In this document: one piece after another, positions 1 to 58,344 of the stretch | Position numbering within the stretch: position 1 is the first letter of the stretch | Layout: every line of letters starts with the position of its first letter | Assembly: GCF_964204645.1 (NCBI RefSeq) | Contig: NC_134028.1 | Span: 19,690,153 to 19,754,152 of the forward strand | Origin: Tubulanus polymorphus | Lineage: Eukaryota > Nemertea > Palaeonemertea > Tubulaniformes > Tubulanidae | Direction of reading: 5' to 3' | Length of the DNA stretch: 64,000 nucleotides | The notes under the pieces: generated by a model | Seen by the model: the letters and a program-made list of their open reading frames with translations, nothing else | What the model was told of the DNA's origin: nothing | Databases searched by the model: none | Program-made: the position numbers and the translations under genes

Positions 1-264
1 GCGACTAAAAAAGGTCCAGGACCCGTATCAGTTAATCTTAATGTATTCGATACTGAGAGAGTTTGTAGTTACCCTCGAGAAACAAGACATGTCGGAGTTA
101 GGTCTGATTGTGTGAGTTTTGAAATGTACTTTTCTCTGAAGTGAACGAGGAAATGTGGTTTCAATATCACTGATCATCTGGAACTAAAAACAGAACAAAC
201 ATCTTATCATAATTTCTATCCAGTTGATTATGATCGAGGGAGGGCGGCGCGGTGGAGGATTTAC

Positions 265-556
265 CTGCATGGCTAGACGTTTAAAATATGCATTCTTCTG
301 AATTTTATCAATGTCACCCACAGCGATACCGACCTACAAACAAATACAGAATCATTCATAACGACATTCTTAATCATTTACATCGATTTAACTTTTAATC
401 ATAAAATTTGAAATATAAAAATTCAATTTATCACGATCTATGAACGATATGATATTACAATGTATATATTCTACTATGTATAATTGAAGTAGAAATGCAC
501 GTATGTAAACTAGAACCATGCAGTTTAACAAAACCCAAATCAAATTGTCTCAAAAC

Positions 557-651
<95 letters not shown>

Positions 652-3600
652 TAACTAAATCAAAACTAAGGGTCCAGGGACATCATATGCCCACTTGATA
701 AAATGCTTGCAATCTGACAATTTGAATATTCATCACCCTCTATGGTGAACAAATAAATCAATACTAATAGAACTTTTCCTCTTAACTAGGATTCTACACT
801 TGACTGTCGTTAGAAACATATGCCTACAGATACGAATAAATATACATAATACCATTTTATTCCACTATTCAACGCCCCCGTGATCGAATAAAAAAACCAA
901 TCACTTTGGAATAGCACAATCGTAGGAAATGACACGTGCCACAATTTTGCAATTAATTGTTTTCATAGCATATCACTAAGTACCAATGTATATGGAAATT
1001 TTGTTATTCAACGCCCCCCTGGTGATTATAAACAGACACTTAATGGCTTTGGAACCAACCTCTATCGTAAATTTCACGAGCTACAAATATTAGAAAAAAA
1101 CTGGGTAACCTCAATTCCATGTGAGGAGATGAATCCTATGACAGTGATAACAATTATGAAATGTCAAGATGATGAGTTAAAACCTTTCGATTTTTTCCTT
1201 CAAAAACCGTTTTCCATCTACGATTGAGGACTGATTATTCATTGCGTGCAACATTGACTGATCAGAAAACTCGATCGTCTGATCTGGTATGTCAAGATCA
1301 AAGAATAGGCCTACCCACCACGATTTCTTATTCAGAAAAATACAAATCCTTTTAGTGAGCTATTTGGTCTCAGATTTCAGGCTGAACTTTGGGAAAGGAC
1401 TGCAGATGTGGATGATCGTATAAACCAAAATATGGAGACAATCCGTTGAAATTTCCGAACCGGATTCCGCCTATGGACGGATGGAAAAGTGAAATGCAAC
1501 AACCCGCTGCGACTTATTGGGTCATCAATTGGCTAAAAGCATATAAGCATCGCAGCATGGTGTTAAACGGGCATTCCAAACACATTCCATTATTAAACAT
1601 TCCAAATTAAGAGTTAACCGTGGGTTAAGGAATGGTGAGGTCGTTCTGGATGTAAGGTAGTTCAGGTTTTGGTGTAAAGTGGTGTAAAGTGGTTCAGATG
1701 GTTTTAGGTGTAATGGTTCAGATGGTTCTGGCGGTCGTAGTTATGAACATACCAATAGATTCATGATCATGATGGGCATCACAATAACGAATACAACTAA
1801 TAGAATAAAACCATCGTGTTTGAACGGACCCAAGTCTGAGTGTACAAAACTATCCATATAATTGATTTCGCCTAGAGTCATAATCATTACAGTCACCGTG
1901 TTTTCTTCAAACGTCTCAAATACCGGCTGAAAATACACATCATTATATATTCATACACATACATTTCATCCCGGTATATCGAGCCCCCCGTGGGTTCAAT
2001 TATCTCTCCGCCACCCCTCACCCCGAGTCGCTGTGGCAACACTAAAGGCATGTCCATCTATGCATGATCGTTTGGTATTATCTATAGCTCAGGCCGGGAT
2101 TTGCATAATTAAGCGAAGAAATTAAGCCTGGATTATCATTAAATAATGTTGCTGCTGCTGCACCTATGCGCCAACTCCAAAACAAAAAACACAACAATCC
2201 GATAAAGTGTAAAAAATGGGCATGCAGCCATGCGCAAAAACAAGAAATCCAATTGAAATAAATCAAAAACACCAATATGAAACACTAGGAGTTATTCGAT
2301 TGGTTTGATTTAAATTGGTTGGACGTGTTTTCTTGCTTTACAGAGGTCAGCACGACTAGCAGGCTGTTTATAATGTAATTACCAGCAAATTCATGATAAT
2401 TATAGGCATCAATATGACAAACATTAATAATAAAATGTTTGCGTCATGTACAAATGGCCCCAAATCAACATCGACGAAATTATCGATGTAATTGATTTCA
2501 CCGATTGTATTCACAGCGATACACACAACATTACTGATATAATCAGAGAATACAGCCTGAAAATATAGAATATATCAATCAGAGTGAGGGGCGGTAGAGG
2601 ATGCAACACAACCCAGACACAGAGCTCCCAAGTGAGGAGGGACGGTTCGGTTTGAGATACAACCTACCAATTTTCCCATAACGATGTAAAATGCGCTTCC
2701 GAATGCACAAATAAAAAAGAACACAATAACCAACATCTGAAATACAGAGATATGAGGATATAGATGTTAAGTGACAATATATACCCCACACTGTGGGTTG
2801 GGATGTCAACCCAGTCACATTTACCTTTATCGCTGATTTAAAAACTGCCGTGAACATTATCAGATAAATTCCCAACCAATCAACCCTGTGAATAGAAAAT
2901 TTAAACATTCAAATACATATAACAGCCTGTTCTATTCATAATCTATCATTATTTGCCATCAAAAAGGTATTTCAGTGCAAAATAAATTCATGCATTCATT
3001 CATCCGTAGTGTCCTTTGTGATGTAGATACTTAAAGTACCTCTCTTGAATTGTTCATCGTGAGAGTGCCGCCATAGTATATGTCCTACTTTATGTTTCAT
3101 GGTTGTGTCTAAGGTTTCTATGAAATACGTTGCTCCCCTCTTGAAAAATATTAGTGCTCTCCGTATCTATTTTTCCACACTTTAAAGTTGCCCGGATTGC
3201 ATTGTGATCTGAATGGCAGCATCATCGCTGATTCAAACTCATCGGCTGAGGAGCCGCTCGAGGTTTCGATTGTGTTGATGTCAATCCATTCATATGATGT
3301 TACTTCTGGTTGACAATATTCGGAGGAGAGGGAGGAAGCGAGGGGAGGAGGGGTGGTGGTTTTACCTGCGCATGTACATGATGAAATTAAACCAACTGAG
3401 GAACATAGCGATCCATCCACATCTCCACTGCATCAAACACGGTTTAGTCATTGGTGGAAATATATATCCACAAGTACTGATTAATAGCGCTAGCACCAGG
3501 TAGTTATACACATCAAGGAAATACGACATTTTCTACAAATAGAGATTATCGATAGATATTGAAACATTCTTTGGTAAAAACGTTAATTGTCGTTAATAAA

Positions 3601-6600
3601 CGTTATTTGGAGCGATTTTTTACCTGTCTAATTAGTGAGAAAACCTCGCGTACGAAGAACGTGACTATCATCACCAGCAACAGAACATCAACAACAGCGA
3701 AAAAAGTATAATCATGATCCTGACGCATTTCCCACGTCATCTGACCATTCTGTCAAATATCACATATCAATTCTTTGATTAATAAATAGCTAAATGTCAA
3801 ACTATTTGCAAGGCAAATACAAAGATTGTGTCATTCTAAAATATCGAAATCCTCATTAGAATTGAAACACCAAATCATTCATGAAAGTAGGAAAATTGGA
3901 TATATCTTACCTTCATGTAAAAATCCACTAATGTGGAGTTCAACATTTCAGTTTCATTGAGGTAAATTGGACAATGATTGACTTCGTCGAATAGAGTTGT
4001 GTTTATAGGAGAACCAACGACATGAGCCGTGTAGATATTCAATAACAATACAAACATCACATAGAATAACAGATTACTGTAGAAGAGATACCGAACACAT
4101 TTCACCCTGAAATTTAAGCAGAATATGGATGTTTGTACAAGTCATTCCATTCCGAACACATTATAGATATGGCTATGATAGACTTACCATTTAACTGAGA
4201 GTAGATTCTGGGAGAGAGGATGAGATAATAGATCCGTGGATTTAACCTTTACCATTGCCTGTTAATTAACAATCAGTAAACAATGAGTAAATCATAGGCA
4301 AATAATTAGTAAATGATAGGACTGAATGTTCTACATACATTCATAGCAAACCATCTTTGTTTTTGACACATCGGATCATCAGGTCCCGGATCTAAAAACG
4401 TGTAATCAAATGTCACCTGAAAAATGTGAATCTTTATAGTTTTATTCTGACGGGAGGCGGGGGCAGGTAGGTCGTGTAGACTATCTATAAATCGTAAATT
4501 AGTAGCAGGGGTGCATCCAGGAATTTTGAAAAGAAGTGCACGTGTCTGAGAAGCCAAATGTTTTGTAAGAGCAATTTTTTAATTTAGAAAACCCACGCAC
4601 ACCCCCGAAAGCCACCCCTGAATAGGACAGGGAGAGCATCACGGGAGGAGGAGGGTGGTGAGGTGTACAGTGAAATACCTCAAGATTTTTATCCTCATGA
4701 TCATCAGTTGATGCGCGGACGCAGTGGTCCATTACTACTTTAGCTGCTTCCGGTAAACGTTCAATCAGTCTCTGCATCGGTGTATATTCATTCTTATCCC
4801 TGATACACATTGACTTTCTCCAACTACAATATATAAACAATCACATTATCAGGGGCACCAGTTAGGGGTGCAGGGTGTATTCTTGATACGCTAGACCATT
4901 TCAAAGTATTGACCATAGACTGCATGACCAGTACAAGATACAGTTTTCAAAATCAATAACAATGTGCTCTTAACTTTTATTAATTTCAGAGAAAAATAAG
5001 CTAATCATGACGAATATTCTATGACTTTTTTCAATCTAATTAGAATTGGGTTTCGCGCCCGACGTACCTCTCAACACTATCCCAATTACATTTTTAGTCA
5101 GAAACGAAAGCTGCCCTATACTTGCGATATTTCTTTCGTTTGAAAGCACAAACTAACCAAAGCTCCAGGGAAAATTCGTTCTCATTCTTTATGCTCAATA
5201 ACTATCGTGTCGTGAATAAATCTATGTACAGATAGATATCTATAATAATAAGGTTTTATAAATTTCTTTCGTAAATCGTGAAATCTATAGGGCATTTTAG
5301 AATAAAATGATATTCATCTTCAAGATCATTTCCATTGCGAAATCTACAGTTCCTCTGTTGTCTCTCCACTGGAGGTCTTTGCCACCTCCCCGTTTCGATT
5401 AAGAAAATGTATGGCTACTCATTCGTATTTTAGCTAAATTCGTATCAATCAGTCTTAAATATGTTTCTTTTTAGAACATTGATTTTGATTCTCTGTAAAA
5501 TGTAACTTTTTTCTGTATTCATTTAACTTCCCATGCCAGGTTTGAATGAACTTATCTTAAATTATAGAACAAGTCATAAGCTAAGTATGTACGTACAACT
5601 TTGCAGTTGATGAATGTGAAAGAAATATGCATGAGCCTCAATAAATTGGAAATACTATGTAATTTCTCAATTTGACCACCCTTGATGGACGTATGGGGAA
5701 ACCAATGACCTTGATTTCCACCAGAATCGTAGAACGTGTCATAACAGACTAGGTTATTGTATACAATCTCCGAATATGAACGAGAACTGAGGAAACTAAC
5801 ACGGACGGGCCACTGAGTGCGTAACAATCGACTTATCCCAAAAACCCGTCTAATATATTGTTTTGGATCTTGATATAGGGATTAACAATGTTGTTTATTT
5901 GTTTGGTAGGATTTTGATTGATTTGTTCGACTATAAAGTCAACACTAACTGTTGGAAAAACGCATCATTGTTACATAATTAACTAGGGCTAGGGACACCA
6001 TAAAATGTTTGAACATATGACAATTTGAAAATTCAACGCCCCTAGGGAACGTATACAGAAACGATGACCTTGAAATTTGCTACAATCATGGGACATATAA
6101 GAAGCTACAACTTTGCAATTGAATTTGATAACAAAATACGCATAGATCCCAATATGAATTGAAAAACAACAATTCAACGCCCCCTGGTTAATGTATGCAA
6201 AACAAATGACTTTTTAAATCGCCATTTCATAGGAACGCATCATGATCTACAACTTTGGTATTGATTGTGATCACAAAAAATGCTTAATTTTCAATTTGAA
6301 ATGTTGTATTTGATATAATATAAGGTATCATAATTCAGCTCAGTTTCAATATTGTTGGGGAGAACAATACCGGGTAAGCCCAATTCCATGTACAGGCATA
6401 TGTCCAGGCGATATGTCCCGGTAATGCTTACAATATCGAACATCAAGACTAAGTTATAACATGTCAATATTTTCCTAAAAACCAACCCATATACGAACGA
6501 GAACTGATGGAACCAAGATGACTGCTGACTATATGAAAAATCAGCGTTTCGTCTATTTGTTCGTCAGTACTTTCATGGAATGGCATAGTTTACTGTCAAA

Positions 6601-9600
6601 ATGTGTAAGTGTAACGTCAATCAACACGTTCCCAAATGTTTTGATACTTTCTCAGTTTGTATCAAAAATATTGCCAATTTCTGGTCCTTAAGTCCTGAAA
6701 AATGATAAATTTACAGCGTAAAATCGTACAAACGTGTCAATTATACTTCTAAACGCTTTATTCGCGCACCAGTTGGCAATATTTTTGATAAAAACTGAGA
6801 AAGTATCAAAACATTTGGGAACGTGTTAATCGTGTTATTTCGGCTATACGACACAAGGGGTCGATCGATCCGGTAAGGATAGTATATTTGGTTTATTTTT
6901 GTTCCGACAGTCTATATATACATTGAGCCAATCAGATGCGTTGCTTCTCACTGTTTTTCACCAGCAACCTGTCCACCGAGGAAATTATGGGTGGTGTATA
7001 AGACCTAATAGTCAGAATATGAATTTGCAAACTATGTTCAAAATGATAAAAACCTTTTATGTTTAAGTAGCGCCAATGCAGCCTCATTGGCTAAGCTGTT
7101 TATTGCGACGTCTAGTGGCGAATGGCCGTGCGAATTCCTCAATGTGACGTCAGCATGGCGTTCTAATAGTAACCGAACTGCATCAGCGTGATTACTCGAA
7201 CAGGCGTGATGTAATGAGGTGTTCTACAAAATACAAACATGTACAACATTCACTTGTGACGGATGCGATCGCAGCCCAGCTTGTGTCGACTGCGCTCCGA
7301 ACTGACAACTGCAACGGCTCAGATGGTCGCGTGATAAGCATTTTGAGAATAAATTTGAATTATTTTGAATAATTAAGAAATATATTTCTATTAGAAAAGC
7401 TATTTATTTAAGATCTTTATCTTTCTTATTCTGTTTTGAATATAATGTGCGAGTGACATCATATAAAGATGGCGGCTCACACGATAATTCTACCGATTTC
7501 GTTTCTAGATCTTCGGTCACGTGACCATCTGAGCCGTTGCAGTTGCCAGTAATCGTAACCGACATAAGCAGGGAAGCAACTGGGAGGATCTCATATCCCG
7601 CTAATCGGCCGCAGTTGCTGGGGAATCGGAGCGCAGTCGACATCTGGGCTGCGATCGCAGTTGCTCTCGGTTGCGTCGGTAGGAGTCAGTAGGCGTCGCG
7701 TTGCTTTTCGACATAAGCCAGCCTAAAGAGCGCATGGCCGAGTCAGGCGCGGATCTAGGGCCATACAGTGACTACAGCACAGTGAAAAAAGGGCACCAAC
7801 TTTGAAAAGGGCCAGTATTTAATGCCCAGCGAGCGAGTTTGAGTTTGAGTGCATTCATTGGTATCATGCCATTAATTTGCATTCGATTTGATTGTGCCTT
7901 TTTTAGATTTTTGGCGAAATTTGCCCTTTTTTAGCAACAATAATGTCTCTTTTAGAATAGTGCCCTTTTGAGTAAAAAATGCCTTAGATTGCCTTTTATG
8001 ATTTTTGGCAATTTATTTCATTCACATTTTGCTTTAGACCTAGTACAGAAAGGCAATTATTTTTTATGGCGCACAAATTGTGTGCCCTTTTCTTTACTTT
8101 TTTCCCGAAACAAAAAATTTTCAAGGGCATTTGAAAACTGCGACTACCGCACGTGCTGCATGTGCGATAGTCTAGATCCGCGCCTGTGAGTGGATTTAGT
8201 TCTAATCAGGCAAGTGGTCATACAGCTTGTCGTGTATGCGTAATAAACAAACAGATAAGCAAACAAACAAAACGAGTGTTTTACGCATGCGGTGATCAGA
8301 CCACGTGACATATGATTAACATACCTTTACTTTATCGCCATCATTTACATTAGCATGATGATCTAACAATGTGATCATAGTCGGGGTGTTGCCATAGTGA
8401 GCGGCTAATATCAATGCAGTACAGCGGCTATCATCTCTATAAAATCAATTATAGAGATTTTTGATTAATTCTAACATACTTTTCCATTGATCTAAGAAAG
8501 TTTGATACTTACTTTGATGATGTATCTGCCCCCAAAGACAGCAATACTTTAACCACGTGACGATGCCCGTTAATACTAGCCAATAAGAGCGGAGTTCGGC
8601 CATCGATGTCATCGTCGTTTAATTCCGATTTGCTAGCTTCTATTAAACTCTCAGCGCAAGCTAAATTATTCGATTCAGCCGCGATGTGCAACGGAGTTTT
8701 CTCGTCAGTATCTTTAACACTAGCGTCAGCACCAGCTTCCAGTAGAATCCGTAACAACTAAACATCGAATAAATAACATATTTTGAACAGCTCGCCCCAG
8801 GATTCGATCCCCTCAGAAAATATGGTTTAAGTCTATCATCGGGACAGTTGTCAAAGTACAGTATAGAGTTAAAATTCAACTCTTTTCAAATGTTTGAAAT
8901 AAATCTTTTCCAGAAAATGTTTAATTTTGATAAGCAGAAAATAGATAAGATTATAAACAAAATTAAAGTCAAACGAATTCCGTTCGTTTTTTTGTCGCCG
9001 TAAATACCGTTACAATAATGTTTATGTACTTTGATAGCTATAGGTCCCGTGCGAGTAGATGTGCAGTATGTTATCGATATTGGCGTTTCGAAACAACAAT
9101 TACAATTGCGAATTTTGGGGATTATTCTATAATTAGATATGCTCATATTTTGTTTTTGATAATTGTTTTTTCGTGGATGGGGAGCATCTCAAAATCTCAA
9201 TAGATCTGTCAATTAGAATAACAGTCTTAATAGGTTTTAATAGTTCGGCAGTCGTGATGAATCCACCCAACCTCCTTCCGCGAGTTATTCTAATTGAAGT
9301 AGCTATCGAAATTTTGAGATGCTCCCTTAGTACACCATCAATATATCGGGGGCTAGACTGGTTGCCATCAACCTGCTGTCTGTTCACACCCTTAGACGTT
9401 CGATAGACATTCACCGTTTTCCCAAAAAGCCGTTCGTCCAGGCGTCGCCACCCCCTGTGGCAGTACCCCAGACATTTGTCATCGGTAATGAATTAGGGTG
9501 TCATGTCTGAACCATCAATAGACAAACATTCGACATTTGTGAAAAAATGTGTTTAGGCTTCGACATTGAAAAGGTAATCGCCCGAAGGGGTGCGTACAGT

Positions 9601-12600
9601 CAGCAGTTTGACTGCTGCATTAAAGGAGCGGACAGTGGGATACTGATAAAACACGTACCGAATTATTGCCCACATACGCGGCGTAGTGTAAAACAGTTTG
9701 ATCGTTCCTATCTTTTCTGTCTAAAATCGATTTACCATTCTTCTGCAAAATGCATAAATACACTGCATCGGTTAGAGAAACATTCCCCGCCGCCCGACCC
9801 CCTCAAATACCACCAGGCTCCATAAACTTACGGCTAATATAGACATGACAGTCATACTATGTTCACCTTCTACAGCCCAGTGAAGACATGTTTTTAAAGA
9901 TGTATCTAATGAATTGATTTGCGCTCCGTTATCCAATAGAAACTCAACAGCTTCCGTCTGACCTTTCCAACATGCCACGTGCAACGGACCTAGATTATTG
10001 ATGTCTTTAGCATTGATATCCGCTCCCTACAACGAACAATGGATAATTAACATCACACTCCCTGCAAAACGCATTAATAGCACCCAATTATTCATGCGCT
10101 GTACAAGTAAATTCCTTCATGATTCATAATTATCCCACCTGTCCAGACAGCACGTGGGTACACCACAGATGTGGTTCAACCTAGGAGAGATAATTGCGTG
10201 TACGTTCAACCAGGGAGAGAGGTGGTTGAACCCCAACTGACGGAAGAAAACAGTCTCGTGGATCTCGACATAACTACGTAGCCTGTGTTCAATACAATTA
10301 TTCAGCTGAACTATTGTGGTTATGAAGTGTAGAGCCCGGACTGATTGCCATTTGATCTTCTTTTGGTATACCCTTGGTTGGTGTTTGATAAACAACTGAC
10401 AAGACGCCTGATTTCGTGAATTACCTGATCCATGAGTATTTTAATGATATCCACACGATCATACATAGCCGCTTTATGAAGAGGAGTCATTTGTTCGCAA
10501 TCACGAGGGTCTATTTCCGCTTTCCAATCCAGGAGCAACTGAACTAACTCAGAGAATCCGTTCACTGCTGCGATATGTAACGGGCTCATTAGATTCGCCT
10601 GTGAAAAATTAATTAACATAGACATGAATGACGATTTGTCTTATTAAGCTCACGATACATTTATCGCTGTTTTTTAACCTTGGGTATCATTTGTTGGGTT
10701 GAAATCCCTTTTATCGTTTTTATATTCCAGTTGTATTTATTCCACAGCAAGCAAGTCGAAGTTATGGTGGTGGTGGTGGGGATAGGAAGTGGGGTTGATA
10801 GAAGTAAAGTGTTTCCCTGCCTCAAATTCTCAGTAGGGGGGATGTTAACCCAGCGATGTTTTGAATCTTCTTATTTACGGATTTTTTGTAGTTGTAAAGA
10901 TGAGACATGGGGGGGGGGGTGTATGTAGAGCGGGGGATTGTGCAGCTACTGTAGTAAAAATGTAAAAACGATCTTGTTAGGAATAAATCATTGCCCTTTG
11001 ATATAAAAGTAGTTATATATGCATGAGCCGTAGAGAGTGCGCAAAACTAACTCTGTTGAGGGGCTTAGGAGATGCCAGCTGTCAGGTTAAAAACGGAAGC
11101 ATTTACAAACTTACCGTGGTTTCATTTAAAGTAGTTAATTCCAAATCACTTCCCTATAGAATACATTCGTAAATACATGCAATAACTATACAACTGATAC
11201 ACATAAAGCATTAATGAAATACAGCTCCAGAAAACTACAAGCTAAGAATGAAATAAAACACAAATAATTTGAGTGAAATCAATGAGAATATTTCATGCGT
11301 ACCTTTCTAACATTAACATCGGCACCTTCATTCAGTAGTAGCCTACCACACTACAAAATGTAATGTCAAAATAGAATCAGCAGAATGTAGGGACGAACTT
11401 GTTCGAAATCATCGGAATGGAACATCAGCGAGATTCAATAAAAAAACAGCAACAAAACTAAGGTCAAACTGATGTTGAAATTTGCACATTACATTGCATA
11501 CTGACCTCTAAATTTCCGTTTTGTACAGCGTAATGTAAACTAGTATTGCCTTCATTGTCTTTTTTACCGATATAAAAACATTTATTCTCCGGTTTATAAT
11601 CTTTCGAATCAGTTACTGAAACATAATTAAAAATCTTCAAAAATGAATCCTTGGAAAACTATGACATTTTTCTCTATATCAACGTTGTGCTTATTTGTTC
11701 ATAATTACATTTCGCATATATGAATAAATGCGCTTTTCGATAGGGCCCCTATGTGTTCTAGTAAGATGGTGATGTCTCTAGCATGGACGAAAATATGCGC
11801 CTCCTTGAAGGAACGGCACGATCCGGAACAAAAGCTTATTCAAACAGGCTGCTGTTTCAAAAGACTTGAATTGCAAATATATATCGTTGGAATCGAATCG
11901 ACAGTGTGTAGATGGATGAAAATAGCTTATTCAAGTTCATTTAAAGCAAAAAACATTTGAGACTGCGTTTATAGTATTTAGTGGTTTTATAGTTTTATTA
12001 TGTGGGCCGGGAGTTTGTACCTGCATCGATCAATAATCTCATTACTTCTGGATGACCTTCACCTGATGCTAACATCAATGGCGTCATATCATTGATATCT
12101 TTAGCCAACGGATTAGCGCCTTTATCCAACTATAAATGAAGTGTGAATCAATTAGATTGAATCATGAACTCTAAAACTGATTCCTATTTAGAGTCCATGA
12201 GTGAATCAAATAGCAGTAATGCTTCACGAGCTCATCAATGATTGACCTACCAGGATCTTACAGGTCTCTGGACTACCATGCAGTGCCACCTCGTGGAGGG
12301 GCGTACTGTCATCATCGTCGGTAACATTAGCGTTGGTTATACCCTGATCTTTGGATTCCAATAAAATCTAGCAAATTAGAAAATCAATAATTACGAACTA
12401 TCTCAAATGACAGAGTCACTGCCTGAGACTTTTTATACAATACCTGAACCATTCGCTGAAAACCTCTCCTAGCTGCCACGTGAAAAGCAGTTTTACCTTT
12501 AGCATCAACTGCCATCACATTAGCCTTGAATTTCAATAAAATTTGCGCCACTTCACGGCAATCATATTTACTAGCTAACATCAACGGGGTCGAATTCTCA

Positions 12601-13833
12601 TTACCGCGAACATCCGGGTCTGCGTGTGACGTCACAGAGAGAAAGTAATTAACATATCACAAACAAATCATCATTAATTTACTTAAGTAAAGTATTCATA
12701 ATCTACTGTGTATTCAAAATATATCAAACTTAGTACAGGCTATTTTATGTATAATCGAAATAATTGGAATACCCTTTACCGAAAATGAGATATGAAAGTA
12801 ATCAATTCCTATATAACTTACTGGCTCCATTCTCGAGTAGGTATTCCACAACTTTAACTCGATTGTATCTGGCTGCATGATGTAGAGCTGATAATCCAGA
12901 TTGTGGTTCGATTGAATCTATTGCTGCTGGATTCTCTTTTATATGTGATTTTAGTACATCTAATAATCCTTCACGAGCCGCCTGCAAATAATCAATTCCA
13001 CCGCGCAGAGTTAGATACTTCAATGTAAATAATCAACGAAATGTTTACTATTTCATTTGATGTTTTATACACTTTCGACGTATGCTAACATCTGAAGAAA
13101 GTGCATTTTTTCTCCATTCCATTTTCTGCTAACTGTTTCTTCACATACATACGTATAAACTATAATCGTCTAGTTTATATGTCCATGAACTAGATTATAG
13201 TTTATGTCCACGCTTATAGGTTGACCTGTGTTTTACAGGACAATGTGTCTTATACTACATACACACATGTGCATATATTATATCTATCAAACCAAAGAAT
13301 ACACACAAACCCATATTGACCCTCTCAAATCATATTTTCGTTATATCATCTAGATAAAAAGTCCACCGACAGACAAGATGAAGTACGTAGTAGTAGAATA
13401 GCCACACTCGACGTGGAGGGCGCACGATATAATGAAACCCACTATTTACTGATCAAAAGTATAAAAAACGATGATTTATTGAAACAAAAAATATACTAAA
13501 ACACACGACCGCTAAATAACCCGGAAAATGATGAATAATGAAATATCGAGTTCTCGACTTTGACAACGAAGCTACACTTCGAATCAATCAAGTCGATTCA
13601 TTCTTTATCAAACTATTTGAGCCAATGTAGGCCTAACTAGCTGACTCCATCCACTTTGAATAACTACTTATGTCCTGATCATTCGAGTCGGATGGAAACA
13701 GTGGCATTATGTATAAAAACCGTATTCAGGATATTTCTTAAAAATTCCAACTGCAATTAATTCAGTAAATGAATAAACTTACTTTGATAAATGTATGTTT
13801 AAAACGATCTGCCTCTGAAAGATCTCCGAACAT
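265..13833 (-). CDS. TRPA1-like: TRPA-family cation channel (TRPA1-like), 24 exons, 3' end off the left edge
   Basis: This is a plasma-membrane, calcium-permeable sensory channel of the TRPA family. Exons, 5' to 3' on the minus strand: 13783-13833, 12822-12981, 12444-12619, 12251-12367, 12021-12129, 11506-11615, 11303-11350, 11115-11153, 10425-10598, 9832-10026, 9659-9742, 8513-8757, 8325-8436, 7054-7223, 4679-4823, 4339-4416, 4188-4258, 3911-4106, 3624-3749, 3366-3532, 2825-2885, 2668-2736, then 2383-2556 or 1753-1926, then 265-333. All joins are GT/AG and keep frame, giving 982 codons with one pore exon. Residues ~18-600 hold about 16 ankyrin repeats (TPLHIAA-type). S1 starts near residue 700 and is followed by a loop with three N-x-T sequons; S3-S4 has [14 protein letters not shown]5 is near 879-901; the pore has GEINY; the TRP region reads [12 protein letters not shown]. 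Start: the ATG at 13833 opens a 17-codon exon, so the N-terminus is short. Some 100-150 C-terminal residues are missing off the edge. It could be a basal TRPA paralogue rather than strict TRPA1. Confidence 0.93.
559..649. repeat. (AT)n microsatellite
   Basis: About 90 bp of uninterrupted TA dinucleotide lie 3' of the pore exons, in the intron before or near the last TRPA exons. Open frames of Ile-Tyr across it are artefacts. Confidence 0.98.
663..1610 (+). repeat. Interspersed repeat with ~150-bp modules, copy 1 (diverged)
   Basis: This is a diverged copy of a family seen five times in the window. The head reads GGGTCCAGGGACATCAT, followed by modules with CGCCCCCxxxTGA, 'caattttgcaattaattgt' and 'tgtatatgg'. 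The tail resembles the other copies (a 'gtgaaatgcaacaacccgctg' segment). It lies in a TRPA intron. No coding capacity is visible. Confidence 0.75.
1753..1926 (-). CDS. TRPA pore/S6 exon, version B (tandem duplicate)
   Basis: This is a second exon of exactly 58 codons, also phase 0 at both ends, with a ttttcag acceptor and a GTATGT donor. It reads [12 protein letters not shown] in the selectivity segment and ends IMIMNLL. It is identical to version A at 34 of 58 residues, and the invariant stretches are GEINY, DLGPF and MNLL. It has no stop or frameshift. Including both versions would give two pore/S6 units in one subunit, so mutually exclusive use is the natural reading. This is inferred, not shown. 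Confidence 0.9.
2383..2556 (-). CDS. TRPA pore/S6 exon, version A
   Basis: This exon of 58 codons encodes the pore loop and S6. The selectivity segment reads [12 protein letters not shown], and S6 ends IIIMNLL. It is flanked by a tttcag-type acceptor and a GTAATT donor, and both ends are phase 0. It follows the S5 exon (2668-2736) directly. It can splice straight to 265-333, giving MNLL-VGIAVGD, the normal TRPA continuation. A second version of the same exon lies 3' of it. Confidence 0.92.
5545..6540 (+). repeat. Interspersed repeat with ~150-bp modules, copy 2 (diverged)
   Basis: This diverged copy of the same family lies in the 2.2-kb TRPA intron between 4824 and 7053. Recognisable pieces are 'acaactttgcaattgaattt', 'caacgccccctggttaatgt' and 'gggctagggacaccat'. 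The remainder of the intron from 4824 to 5545 shows nothing recognisable. Confidence 0.7.
6611..6838. mobile_element. MITE with ~65-bp terminal inverted repeats
   Basis: The left arm (taacgtcaatcaacacgttc, continuing to ~6675) is mirrored by the right arm ending ggaacgtgttaatcgtgtta. The arms are near-perfect inverted repeats around a ~95-bp core with no open frame. It sits in a TRPA intron. The superfamily was not determined. Confidence 0.85.
7262..7664. mobile_element. Inverted-repeat (MITE-like) element
   Basis: A left arm at about 7262-7332 (tgcgatcgcagcccag, gcaacggctcagatggtc) is repeated inverted at about 7497-7664 (gaccatctgagccgttgc, ctgggctgcgatcgca). The right arm carries extra sequence. 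There is no transposase. It lies in the TRPA intron between 7224 and 8324. Confidence 0.75.
7744..8186. mobile_element. MITE with CAGGCGCGGATCTAG ends (hAT-like termini)
   Basis: The left end CAGGCGCGGATCTAGG is mirrored by CTAGATCCGCGCCTG at the right end. CAGxGGCGGATC-type termini are usual in hAT elements. The core repeats 'gcccttttt' several times and has no transposase. The flanks show only partial likeness (GAGT), so an 8-bp target duplication is not demonstrated. Confidence 0.7.
9180..9326. mobile_element. Hairpin MITE, ~44-bp inverted arms
   Basis: The left arm begins gggagcatctcaaaatctca and the right arm ends ttttgagatgctccc, with matching aattagaataac/gttattctaatt inside. It is about 147 bp long and non-coding, in the TRPA intron between 8758 and 9658. 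Confidence 0.8.
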
Positions 13834-19381: not shown

Positions 19382-20339
<958 letters not shown>

Positions 20340-20358
20340 TTTTGGTGCCGTGACCAGG

Positions 20359-22731
20359 ATGGGGTCAGAAGGAAGGCTAACGGCAATCAGAAGGGCCCAA
20401 CGGGGCCAAATGACGAAGATTTTCGGAAAAACGGAAGAAAAACTAGCAGAGATTCTACTCGTCGATGAAAGTTCAAGAACTCTGGAAACTGTTCAACCGT
20501 TCTCCACTTTAATCGACGCGCTGTTCACAAAATTCGAATATTTACGACAATTAGACCAACAATTAATGGATGAAATCGCTGATGAAACCGAGTTAACTAA
20601 CACTATAGTTGAATCAGATGATTATCTCACTGAGATACAAATCAAACTCGGTCGATTCAAACTGAACTTGGATAATCTACTAGCGAAGATACCAAAACCA
20701 CAATCGCTAAACGAATCTGTAAGTACCATCAATCGAAGCAGTACTACCTCAACCGGCAGTAAAAAAGTCAATCTACCAAAATTGGCTCTCCCAAATTTCG
20801 ATGGTGACATTTTGAAATGGTCTACTTTCTACGATAATTTCATCTCAGCCGTCGATAGCGATCCGCATTTGGACGATATCCAGAAGTTTCAATATTTGGT
20901 CGCACAACTCACTGACGAAGCAGCGCGTACCATAGAAGGTCTGCAAATAACTAGCGCTAACTACAAAGAAGCTCTGACGATCTTAGTAGAAAGATACGGT
21001 CAACCTCACAAGATCGTGAACGCGTACATCAGAGCTTTATTAGATTTGCAGCCACCGCAGGATCACGAGAGTCTACGCGAATTTTACGATTCTTTGGAAA
21101 CATATATTCGAGGATTGCGCGCGCTCGGGAAATCGGAAGATGCGTTCGGTGACATACTCGTTCCGGTAGTCTTCGATAAGCTACCGAGTCCCGTCAAAAC
21201 ACAAATTTCACGGGAGCACGGAGACCGCGCCTGGACACTTAAAGAACTACGCGACGCGATCCGAAAGGAAATACAAGCTACACAGGCAGGAGCGAGCTGC
21301 GTCAACTTCGATAATGAAAAATTATCCGCTCTTCATATAAGCACTAAAACGAGGAAAAATCCGGCCTCGAAAAACAACAGTTGCGCGTTCTGCAAGGGTC
21401 CACATACGGCGTTCTCATGCGATATAATCGTTAACCCAAAAAAGCGACAAGACATCATAAAGGCAAATCGTAAGTGTTATAACTGTTTTGGCAATCACAT
21501 GGTAACAGCTTGCCAATCGAAATATCGTTGTAAGGTTTGCAAAGGCAAACACCACACTGCTATTCATATAGATCGAAATACTGATACGCATATTGAATCA
21601 AAAAATATTCATGTCAATATAGCTCCAACTTCAAGTCCTGTTCTCTTGAAATCGGCTATTGGTCAAATAAATTATGGTTCGAATTCGACCACGGTAAATA
21701 TCTTGTTTGACGAAGGAGCGCAGTGCTCATTCATCACTAAAAAGTCGGTAAATGAATTAGGTGTCCGATTGGACAAATTTGAAAAGCAAGATGTAAATAT
21801 TTCCACCTTTGGTGACAATTCGCCTGGGGCACGTACTCTACGGAGTATAGATTTAAAACTTCGTACGCGTAAAGGCGAAATTGGTTTACGTGCATTAGTT
21901 GTACCGGAAATATGTCCACCAATTCAGAACAATGTAAAACTTGCTGTGACAAATCACCCGTACCTTCGAAATTTACCATTAGCACCGTACGTCAACACCA
22001 GCAATTGTGAAATTAATCTATTAATCGGTGCTGATTATTACTGGTCGATCGTAGAGAATGAAGTGGTTAGAGGAGCTGGCCCGACAGCTGTCAGTTCCAA
22101 ACTCGGGTTCCTTCTATCAGGACCCATCAATTTGAACGCGAATACATCGGTACTCCATACTACCTGTCTTTTGAATACTATACATTCAAACGATGAATTC
22201 TCAAAATTATCTAACTACTGGGATCTTGAAGTAATTGGCATCAAGGAAACGATTAAATCTGAAACAATGAATTTTGAAACGTATCGAGACAATTACCTTA
22301 AACGCGATACCAGTGGTAAATATATAGCGAATTTACCTTGGAAAGAAGATTATCCACCGCTCCCTACCAATTTTGATATTTGTACCGCTAGAACTAGATC
22401 TATGGTTAAACGCTTGTCTCCAGAACTGAGGCAGAAATATAATGCGATAATAGCAGAGCAACTTTCACGCGAATTTATTGAGATAGTAGAAAATGATGAC
22501 AAGAGCCAGGGCCATTACATACCCCACCACTCGGTTAAAAAGGAATCAATCACAACACCGATTAGAATTGTTTATGATTGTAGTTGTAAACAAGGGGATA
22601 ATCCTAGTTTGAACGACTGTCTCGAAAGCGGTCCTTCATTAATAAATGATCTTGTGCAGATATTAATCCGCTTTCGCACGAATAACGTCGCATTTACAAG
22701 TGATTCTGATATGAAATTGGAAATTGATTAA
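20359..22731 (+). CDS. BEL/Pao Gag-protease-partial RT polyprotein
   Basis: This is a 790-residue frame from the first ATG (20359, MGSEGRL) to a TAA at 22731. The N-terminal part carries the DUF1759-type gag region (LPNFDGDILKWSTFYDNF, ERYGQPHKIVNAYI). Three zinc-knuckle-like motifs follow (CAFCKGPHTAFSC, CYNCFGNHMVTAC, CKVCKGKHHTAIH). Next is a DUF1758-type aspartic protease with DEGAQCSFI at its active-site position. The RT starts (PIRIVYDCSCKQGDNPSLND) but the frame ends soon after NNVAFTSD, before the catalytic YxDD region. The element therefore cannot copy itself without help. Gag and protease are fully open, which fits a young non-autonomous derivative. Confidence 0.92.
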   Translation: MGSEGRLTAIRRAQRGQMTKIFGKTEEKLAEILLVDESSRTLETVQPFSTLIDALFTKFEYLRQLDQQLMDEIADETELTNTIVESDDYLTEIQIKLGRFKLNLDNLLAKIPKPQSLNESVSTINRSSTTSTGSKKVNLPKLALPNFDGDILKWSTFYDNFISAVDSDPHLDDIQKFQYLVAQLTDEAARTIEGLQITSANYKEALTILVERYGQPHKIVNAYIRALLDLQPPQDHESLREFYDSLETYIRGLRALGKSEDAFGDILVPVVFDKLPSPVKTQISREHGDRAWTLKELRDAIRKEIQATQAGASCVNFDNEKLSALHISTKTRKNPASKNNSCAFCKGPHTAFSCDIIVNPKKRQDIIKANRKCYNCFGNHMVTACQSKYRCKVCKGKHHTAIHIDRNTDTHIESKNIHVNIAPTSSPVLLKSAIGQINYGSNSTTVNILFDEGAQCSFITKKSVNELGVRLDKFEKQDVNISTFGDNSPGARTLRSIDLKLRTRKGEIGLRALVVPEICPPIQNNVKLAVTNHPYLRNLPLAPYVNTSNCEINLLIGADYYWSIVENEVVRGAGPTAVSSKLGFLLSGPINLNANTSVLHTTCLLNTIHSNDEFSKLSNYWDLEVIGIKETIKSETMNFETYRDNYLKRDTSGKYIANLPWKEDYPPLPTNFDICTARTRSMVKRLSPELRQKYNAIIAEQLSREFIEIVENDDKSQGHYIPHHSVKKESITTPIRIVYDCSCKQGDNPSLNDCLESGPSLINDLVQILIRFRTNNVAFTSDSDMKLEID

Positions 22732-46597: not shown

Positions 46598-47242
46598 TCA
46601 TCGATTAGAATCAATGTTTGTGTCTTCACTCATAAAGTCTCCATCCTCGTCGTCTATCTGTAAATCAGCGGCACTCCTCGGGGGAGACCGGGACCCAGCC
46701 GGCTGCCGCCTTTTATCACCGAATAAATCCTGAGCCGAAACGTTGAATTTCTGTTCGTCGAAACGCTGCGTTCCCCTCGTCATATTTTTATCCTGTTTCG
46801 CTTTGATTTCGATTTTCATTTTCTCTTGTTTTTCCTGTTGTTGTTGTTTGACGGTTTTCAATTCGATCCCGTGAACGGTTTTTAAATTCGCGGCGACCAT
46901 TTTGAACAATCGCGTCTCCGACATGCCGTCCTCGTACAATCGGAAACATTCATTCACGAATCTCTCGCTGATCGTTTCCGATTTCTGATCGTTCAAATCT
47001 ATAATTCCGGGACTGCCGTAAACGCGGTTGAATCGAGCTCGGAAGAAATCCTCGGAAACCATCAGATTTTTCACTTTGTTTTCGGGTAAAATTCGGTTGT
47101 ATTTCGGTTCGATTTTCGGCGGAAAGGCTTCGTAAACATCGAACCAGATCGGTTTGTCGACATCTTTCAGAGCACCGGCTCGCAATAAGCCCTGAACTCG
47201 AGAGTAAATCGTTCCAATTTTGTCTAACCGGCTTCCAGCCAT
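46598..47242 (-). CDS. mRpS23: Mitochondrial ribosomal protein S23 (mS23), intronless
   Basis: This is a small-subunit protein of the mitochondrial ribosome. The frame is 214 residues (human about 190), uninterrupted, starting MAGSRLDKIGTIYSRVQGLL. The family signature follows: RAGALKDVDKPIWFDVYEAFPP, then EDFFRARFNRVYGSPGIIDL, then RFVNECFRLYEDGMSE. The C-terminus is a lysine/glutamine-rich helix and an acidic tail. Start context is AAAGATGG. An AATAAA lies 55 bp past the stop. The gene begins only 53 bp after the ERCC1 stop codon on the same strand. Absence of introns is notable next to intron-rich neighbours; an intronless retrocopy is one explanation. There is no sign of decay. Confidence 0.93.
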   Translation of the reverse strand: MAGSRLDKIGTIYSRVQGLLRAGALKDVDKPIWFDVYEAFPPKIEPKYNRILPENKVKNLMVSEDFFRARFNRVYGSPGIIDLNDQKSETISERFVNECFRLYEDGMSETRLFKMVAANLKTVHGIELKTVKQQQQEKQEKMKIEIKAKQDKNMTRGTQRFDEQKFNVSAQDLFGDKRRQPAGSRSPPRSAADLQIDDEDGDFMSEDTNIDSNR

Positions 47243-47295
47243 CTTTGTTCAGTACGCGGTGTAGTGTACAGGTGGCAGCACCGCCCAGTCAGAAC

Positions 47296-56938: not shown

Positions 56939-58093
56939 TTAGGACGTCGGATCAGTCACCTGGCCAAGAAACAGAAAGGCCATCGTGCGATTGTCACGAA
57001 TGAAAAACATGAACGGACGATCAGCTCTGAATTCAGGCGGCATGGAATAGCTATCTACCATAATTCCGGTTGCCGCCGCGGCCTCCGTACCTTCTTCGTT
57101 CACTTCAATGAATGCTTTATGAATTCCACGACTGACGTACAGTTCCCTAGTACCGTCCATACCGCTCAGATCGGCAACTCCCTCCGTGAACAACTTCCTG
57201 ATCCCCATCGCCTCCAGCACATCATTCAACTCAACCGTCTTCTCGAATTTGAATTTCGGCAGCGAGACCATCACGTTCGTTTTCCTCACACCGACGCTCT
57301 TCGTCAACCTGTCCAAGAATTCGACCGATAGGCGGCGCTCGACCTCGGCAAGGCCGCCCTTTCGCGTCGGTAAAACGATAAACATGCTCAGCTCCTCTTT
57401 CACATAGGGTAAAGCAAGTATTTCGCAGCCGGATTCTCGATCGAATCCGAACGGAAATCGATCTTGTTGATGCATCATATCGACTACTTTCCATTCGGTT
57501 TCGTTGACCTTGAACTCGCCCTTACGCGTAGCCCTAACCTCGAATTTCTTGTCCCAATTACCTTTGAAATAGATGGCGTTTACCAGTACGAGTTTAGTGA
57601 ATTCGTACAGCACACCGGGCGGAATAATGTCCTTGATTTTACCGGACGTTTTATCTTCGACCCATTTATTGATGACGTTTCTCGATTTCAACTCGTCGGC
57701 GAAATTCAACCGCTCCAAATCAGCGCCGAAATATTTCAAACTATCAGCGAGGTATTCCTCGAGGAAGTTGTACCTCTCCGCCCCGAATAGTTTATTAGCA
57801 GTTTTCAGCTGGTACGCTGATTCAGCACCAGACGAATTGTTCAACGTTGCCAGAAATTCGCCAAACCGTCCGTGAATATTATCGATGTCCCGGATGTGCA
57901 TCGCCTCGGCCATCTCGTTTGACGTGTCACCCCTAGCGCCCAGATTACACAGAGCCAGTGCTGCCGATATACAAACCGGGGACAATAGTATGTTACCCGA
58001 ATTAGCTTTCATTTGTTGCAGGTAGAATTCGACGGCGAATTCCGTATTGGCTTTGACGATAGGGGCGTGTACGTCAACGGTGTTGATTGCCAT
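56939..58093 (-). CDS. Serpin (serine protease inhibitor), intact copy 1
   Basis: A single coding exon of 384 residues, typical serpin length. Start: ATG at 58093 (MAINTVDVHAPIVKANTEFA); a ttttcag acceptor ends 8 bp upstream, so a 5' UTR exon is spliced on. No signal peptide is seen, suggesting a cytosolic (clade B-like) serpin. Family landmarks: NILLSPVCISAALALCNLGA, NKLFGAERYNFLEEYL, VLVNAIYFKGNWDKKF, FIEVNEEGTEAAAATG and PFMFFIRDNRTMAFLFLGQV. The hinge GTEAAAAT fits an inhibitory serpin that inserts its loop. Aligned with alpha-1-antitrypsin by hinge and the MPPEF segment, P1 is Tyr and P1' is Ser, predicting chymotrypsin- or cathepsin-like targets (inference). A second copy lies 6.47 kb away. 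Confidence 0.95.
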   Translation of the reverse strand: MAINTVDVHAPIVKANTEFAVEFYLQQMKANSGNILLSPVCISAALALCNLGARGDTSNEMAEAMHIRDIDNIHGRFGEFLATLNNSSGAESAYQLKTANKLFGAERYNFLEEYLADSLKYFGADLERLNFADELKSRNVINKWVEDKTSGKIKDIIPPGVLYEFTKLVLVNAIYFKGNWDKKFEVRATRKGEFKVNETEWKVVDMMHQQDRFPFGFDRESGCEILALPYVKEELSMFIVLPTRKGGLAEVERRLSVEFLDRLTKSVGVRKTNVMVSLPKFKFEKTVELNDVLEAMGIRKLFTEGVADLSGMDGTRELYVSRGIHKAFIEVNEEGTEAAAATGIMVDSYSMPPEFRADRPFMFFIRDNRTMAFLFLGQVTDPTS

Positions 58094-58344
58094 TTTGGAT
58101 TCTGAAAAGGTAAAGGTAAACACAAAGAAATCAATTAATGCAGAAATGTCCCTGGCATGTGAGACTGTTTTGAAGGGGCTGACTGGGAGAGACTTCTGCA
58201 GACTAGTCTCCTTTCCGTCCAGACAAGGGGAGTTGACCCGTTAGGAGACACAGTCTGGAAAAGTGATCTCCTCCTGATAAGGAGACACCGCCTAGACTGG
58301 GAGAGTGGTATTCTAACCATTAGGAGACACCATCCAGACAGGGA

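Follow-up and report, generated by a model that had tools for sequence, protein, structure and literature searches.

According to the accessible parts of the reports cited here, ion channels are enriched in swaps of tandem exons, some of which are convergent (PMC9741552). In NALCN, exons 15a/15b and 31a/31b are tandem duplicates that cover pore helices and the filter, with exon 15 extending to proximal S6, and the two pairs likely arose in separate events; such pairs are described from molluscs, annelids, and others, and in snails the existence of two mutually exclusive variants is borne out by cDNAs (PMC3557258). Within the TRP family, mutually exclusive exons tune sensing by the TrpA1 channels of Drosophila and mosquito (PMC11471635, PMC8541009), and long and short pore-loop variants of TRPM3 alter divalent permeability and the responses to heat and agonist (PMC7959729). 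A literature search through titles and abstract openings, with subscription papers mostly outside its reach and hence with weak force as evidence of absence, returned no switch of pore exons in a TRPA gene. To our knowledge, the TRPM3 pore-loop variants are not encoded by tandem homologous exons. TRPA receptors are sensors of irritants and temperature.

The window analyzed here is a stretch of 64,000 nucleotides from Tubulanus polymorphus (contig NC_134028.1, forward-strand positions 19,690,153 to 19,754,152), whose first 13 kb hold a TRPA channel gene, termed T1, on the minus strand. We placed 27 exons of T1, both pore exons included, with exons 26 and 27 lying past the window start (locus L006). 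The frame that uses pore exon A is unbroken for 1,106 codons and has a stop at its end; at the 5′ end of the model, no exon carrying the start codon could be located. Following this frame, exons 1 to 14 of the model (4679..12981) encode the ankyrin-repeat region, whose N-terminal array matches Ank_2 (E 2.7e-97, seven stretches in 525 residues), and exons 15 to 19 (3366..4416) encode the region from before S1 to S4. S5 starts in exon 20 (2825..2885) and ends in exon 21 (2668..2736), the upstream neighbor common to both pore exons. Pore exon A (exon 22, 2383..2556) and pore exon B (exon 23, 1753..1926) are separated by an intron of 456 nt (1927..2382), and their common downstream neighbor is the VGIAVGD exon (exon 24, 265..333), which carries the end of S6 and a TRP-like helix and is followed by the C-terminal exon 25 (73..183). 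Elsewhere in the window are a retroelement-like frame with a DUF1759 domain (20248-22731, plus strand; BEL/Pao type by eye), an open frame with a match to mitochondrial ribosomal protein S23 (46598-47248, minus strand), and a serpin in one open frame that covers profile positions 2-370 of 370 (56939-58240, minus strand).

An earlier note on this DNA had assigned the gene to the TRPA group, and this identity is borne out by the ankyrin repeats, by an ion-transport domain, and by matches among solved sequences that are exclusively to TRPA1. The membrane part scores against PF00520 with 33.6 bits when B is used and 30 when A is used (cut-off 25). With either pore exon, nine of nine matches of the S5–S6 region at E<=0.01 are TRPA1, the best of them having an E value of 5.1e-18 with A and 1.5e-20 with B. 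The marks of TRPA membership, a G-(D/E) pore motif and a TRP-like helix after S6, are likewise present (GEINY aligned to [13 protein letters not shown]...KRLAMQ aligned to IGLAVGDI...KRIAMQ).

Exons A and B are each 174 nt long (58 codons), in phase 0-0, free of stops, and bordered by AG acceptors and GT donors, in agreement with the minus-strand coordinates, lengths, and phases given in the earlier note. Each begins directly past S5 and runs through pore helix 1, the GEINY filter, the outer loop, and S6 to MNLL, which in the alignment with TRPA1 spans approximately residues 896-956. A recount returned the identity first reported, with 34 of 58 residues (59%) shared and 24 different. The changes leave the filter untouched (0/5) and affect 12/15 positions of pore helix 1, 7/17 of the outer loop, and 4/18 of S6, along with position 1, so that the proposal of a swapped pore helix and S6 around a fixed filter is upheld region by region. 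With these regions, whose limits were set by the analyst, pore helix 1 is changed more often than the remainder (12/15 versus 12/43, p=0.0007). The position equivalent to F909 of TRPA1 is Ala in A and Met in B, and A has one acidic residue before the filter, compared with three in B. We take TRPA1 residue 909 and its neighbors to line an antagonist pocket, and residues 957 and on to form the lower gate.

All five junctions given in the earlier note (2668->2556, 2383->333, 2668->1926, 1753->333, and 2383->1926) are in frame, and B, having equal length and equal phases, can replace A in the T1 frame, so either exon can join both the S5 end at 2668 and the VGIAVGD start at 333. The description of both exons as having good splice sites needs to be amended: it fits A, whose acceptor ranks 4/27 in T1, and does not fit the acceptor of B, which ranks 25/27; the donors rank 10/26 and 16/26, respectively. 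That the pore exon was duplicated in tandem is confirmed by the presence of homologous neighbors with compatible phases. When B was used as a tblastn query against four TRPA loci, A was found at E=1.5e-18, and the A–B comparison shows saturation at silent sites (pS 0.93) and a far lower pN of 0.286 (Fisher one-sided p=2.8e-13). The likeness of the two exons is therefore not due to chance, and the saturated pS beside the low pN argues for an old duplication under lasting coding constraint.

We read T1 as carrying an old tandem duplication of a pore–S6 exon, in which S5 would be spliced to A or to B and then to the VGIAVGD exon, never to both, and we give this reading a probability of about 0.8. 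In the proposed mechanism, the spliceosome would join exon 21 to one of the two pore exons and that exon to exon 24, and the exchange would preserve the lower gate as well as the GEINY filter while replacing most of pore helix 1. Such a swap would be expected to alter filter-linked gating, the response to ligands or antagonists that act at the pore-helix pocket, and the electrostatics of the outer mouth, and to affect basic selectivity less. The strong acceptor of A and the weak acceptor of B suggest that A would be used by default and that regulated repression of A would release B.

A search of the whole genome with exon A returned five matches, namely, A, B, and three at a paralogue, T1′, which lies 120 kb from T1 on the same contig and spans approximately 42 kb outside the window (C4:19567643-19609721; loci L007, L008, and L046). 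T1′ aligns with T1 in blocks along its length; a distance of 29 kb separates its first exon homologue from the second, which lies downstream. Of the 27 T1 exons, 26 have homologues in T1′ that are open and have AG and GT borders where applicable, as judged from codons that introns do not split; those of exons 1, 3, and 27 differ in length from their T1 counterparts in frame, and no stop was seen in any exon homologue other than that of A. Over 22 gap-free exons (2, 4-21, and 24-26, thus leaving out A and B), the two genes differ with a dN of 0.0295 and a dS of 0.153, for a ratio of 0.19. In a neutral simulation on the T1 sequence at half this dS, a mean of 10.0 stops arose and none of the 500 runs was free of stops.

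In the pore pair of T1′, the homologue of B (B′) is open and the homologue of A (A′) has decayed. A′ carries a one-base frameshift, a replacement of the conserved asparagine of MNLL, and a weaker donor, which scores 3.9 compared with 8.3 in A; its acceptor score equals that of A (11.4). Because the frameshift sits in a homopolymer run, an assembly error could explain the frameshift alone, but the replacements would stand. Differences between A and A′ comprise about 0 synonymous and 10 nonsynonymous changes (0.5 and 10.5 unrounded), compared with 78:60 in the 22 exons (p=0.0004). Seven of the nine changed codons can be polarized by B and B′ together, and in all seven the changed side is A′, with A of T1 keeping the residue common to B and B′. 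The B–B′ comparison (dN 0.076, dS 0.264) yields a synonymous excess (p=0.014) that is modest when taken alone. The polarized changes indicate that T1 still guards A, and that T1′ seemingly operates on B′ alone. This contrast between the genes is the best evidence at hand that each pore may serve in a channel. Both T1 copies thus bear signs of coding constraint in the A–B, A–A′, and B–B′ tests, and the selection tests together with the paralogue indicate that both T1 pores are probably used, presumably one at a time.

A search with the B pore led to T2, a second TRPA gene on contig C1, which has a pore exon pair of its own on the minus strand of locus L018: X1 (1698-1510, 189 nt) and X2 (1443-1243, 201 nt). 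The borders of this pair are those of the T1 pair, namely, past S5 and then past MNLL at phase 0, and the S5–S6 region of T2 with X1 has TRPA1 as its best match (E 3.1e-27), with TRPV next from 5e-6. X1 and X2 also differ less at nonsynonymous than at synonymous sites (pN 0.325, pS 0.70, p=4e-5). Given that T2, too, has a pair, the additional exon in T1 is unlikely to be a product of chance or junk sequence. A TRPA-like gene on contig C2, T3, has the same borders as T1 and T2 and a single pore exon as far as was seen (C2:25132256-25132457, L038), in which the G-D/E filter motif is unrecognizable by eye and reads QLEDI. Queries with the T1, T2, and T3 pores across the genome revealed no further TRPA gene of this kind among the best candidates scored, and a scan of viral contigs for relatives found none. 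Queries for COX1 and for the molluscan haemocyanin domain likewise gave no match, a result that does not demonstrate absence.

Several other ion-transport matches were recorded in the genome. Two segments of contig C5 (18654412-18654609 and 18654623-18654823) hit one and the same portion of the Ion_trans profile and are separated by 13 nt; the second contains an internal stop, and the two are possibly another tandem pair of exons in a channel gene. Approximately 5 kb past the window end lie two ion-transport matches (C4:19759067-19759417 and 19760889-19761071), the second of which is below the family cut-off. Three TRP-like loci (C3:5558977-5559243, C5:3298563-3298835, and C6:4154914-4155309) lie within long frames that run uninterrupted for 616-686 aa and are apparently intronless.

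Pore identities are higher within genes (52% for X1–X2 and 59% for A–B) than between T1 and T2 (33-38%). Trees in which A groups with X1 or with X2 were rejected in three runs, with p-AU values of 0.0005, 0.00006, and 0.0001, the last two being from runs with the T3 peptide trimmed of five or six intronic residues or left out. Unconstrained trees supported the T1 group at 97-98 and the T2 pair at 86-89. B is somewhat closer than A to other TRPA pores, as judged by a shorter branch and higher scores, although support for the node that sets B and B′ against A is weak (46-50%); we infer that B has stayed closer to the ancestral pore and that A has diverged. Rejection of the shared-origin trees implies that this exon was duplicated separately in each gene, unless a shared event was hidden by gene conversion, and the T2 pair apparently derives from a duplication separate from that of T1. 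The presence of T3, with one pore exon and the same borders, indicates that these borders existed before either pair arose. We somewhat favor the wider reading that the TRPA pore–S6 exon was duplicated independently in two genes, each spliced one at a time to form a repeated pore cassette, and that T1′ lost pore A after gene duplication to become a dedicated pore-B channel.

The introns were also inspected for features that might enforce exclusion. For OGDH exons 4a/4b, an enzyme gene, the accessible part of the report presents an exclusion model in which the branch point lies closer to the donor than about 50 nt (PMC7969005). The T2 X1–X2 intron is 66 nt long and has a branch-like CTAAC whose adenosine is 40 nt from the donor, a spacing below the limit discussed for OGDH (PMC7969005). 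It is shorter than all 26 T1 introns (76-2,230 nt) and than the 24 usable introns of T1′ (75 nt and up, with the exon 2-3 intron left out). These features suggest, without being decisive, that exclusion in T2 could operate by steric hindrance. Two observations weigh against this: T1′ has an intron of 75 nt, and in the presumably constitutive T1 intron 26-27, which is 78 nt long, the sole branch-like motif and the donor are 38 nt apart, so that the steric limit is possibly lower in this animal.

The T1 pair differs from OGDH (PMC7969005) in that its A–B intron, which is of a length that can be spliced, showed no close donor-branch spacing; no convincing pairing was seen either. Exact complementary 9-mers were counted against mononucleotide shuffles: the S5–A intron shared 0 with the A–B intron (0.35 expected), the A–B intron had 2 with itself (1.0 expected) and 9 with the intron after B (3.45 expected), and the S5–A intron had 4 with the intron after B (0.5 expected). 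RNA pairing was dropped as the exclusion device of T1; the last two counts are excesses, but mild ones, and the listed examples are AT-rich. Rbfox-type GCATG motifs occur twice in the A–B intron (0.3 expected) and once in the intron after B (0.71 expected), and the tested introns of T1′ and T2 have none; these motifs were likewise dropped as a T1 signal.

Four other explanations were weighed against these observations. If a single pore exon were used in T1, the other would be an intact-looking relic of an old duplication. The weak acceptor of B would fit such a relic, and the decay of A′ demonstrates that loss occurs. Against this stand the saturated silent sites of two copies that nevertheless remain open with proteins 59% identical, the seven common residues kept by A, and the retention of B′ in an otherwise constrained T1′, so that we regard a relic as improbable. 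In another reading, A′ would not be silent in T1′ and would act as an off switch, its inclusion yielding a truncated, degraded message. Its acceptor is as strong as that of A, though its donor is weaker; for T1 the proposal is inapplicable, as A is open and kept the common residues, and for T1′ we hold it to be very unlikely. Less probable still is the presence of A and B together in some transcripts, which would encode two pore–S6 units, perhaps dominant-negative or unproductive. The phases and lengths of the exons (both multiples of three) would preserve the frame in this case, and the 456-nt intron could be spliced. However, the product would gain a re-entrant loop and one membrane segment, which would leave the TRP helix and the C-terminus on the outer side, and in T2 the spacing is possibly too short for joint splicing. 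Because joint inclusion would flip the C-terminus and skipping both exons would remove the pore, use of one exon at a time is the sensible reading of T1.

The remaining explanation concerns origin: the T1 and T2 pairs could both go back to a single ancient duplication of the pore exon, in the TRPA gene ancestral to them, with later homogenization within each gene. The identical exon borders of T1 and T2 are compatible with this history, and gene conversion inside each gene could mimic independent duplications, especially as the compared sequences comprise 58-67 residues only. Yet trees uniting A with X1 or X2 were rejected at p-AU values of 0.0005 or less, and the borders shared with T3 would predate both pairs. 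We therefore consider a common origin unlikely, although it is less so than the three explanations above, and continue to favor separate duplications.

If the proposed one-at-a-time use of A and B is correct, a sensory cell could change gating linked to the pore helix, and its pharmacology, while the stimulus-sensing ankyrin part stays the same, and tetramers with mixed pores would be possible. Such a naturally occurring exchange of pore helix and S6 around a fixed filter would offer a test of how the pore helix and the upper part of S6 determine gating, desensitization, permeation, and antagonist binding, for which the T2 pair would serve as an evolutionary replicate and T1′ as a paralogue in which one pore was given up. 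T1 resembles NALCN in having tandemly duplicated pore exons; however, NALCN is a four-domain leak channel in which the filter residue itself is swapped (E/K), whereas in T1 the filter is fixed and the pore helix is altered (PMC3557258). Unlike in NALCN, every subunit of the presumed T1 tetramer could change. The exons of insect TrpA1 described in the accessible text encode the N-terminus and the region between the ankyrin repeats and the membrane segments, whereas the T1 pair encodes the pore (PMC11471635, PMC8541009). TRPM3 shares with T1 the site of splicing within a TRP pore, but it belongs to another subfamily and, as far as the accessible report describes, uses long and short forms of one loop (PMC7959729). 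In comparison with these systems, what appears to be new here is the occurrence of a known splicing design in the pore of a TRPA channel, where it apparently arose twice within a single genome.
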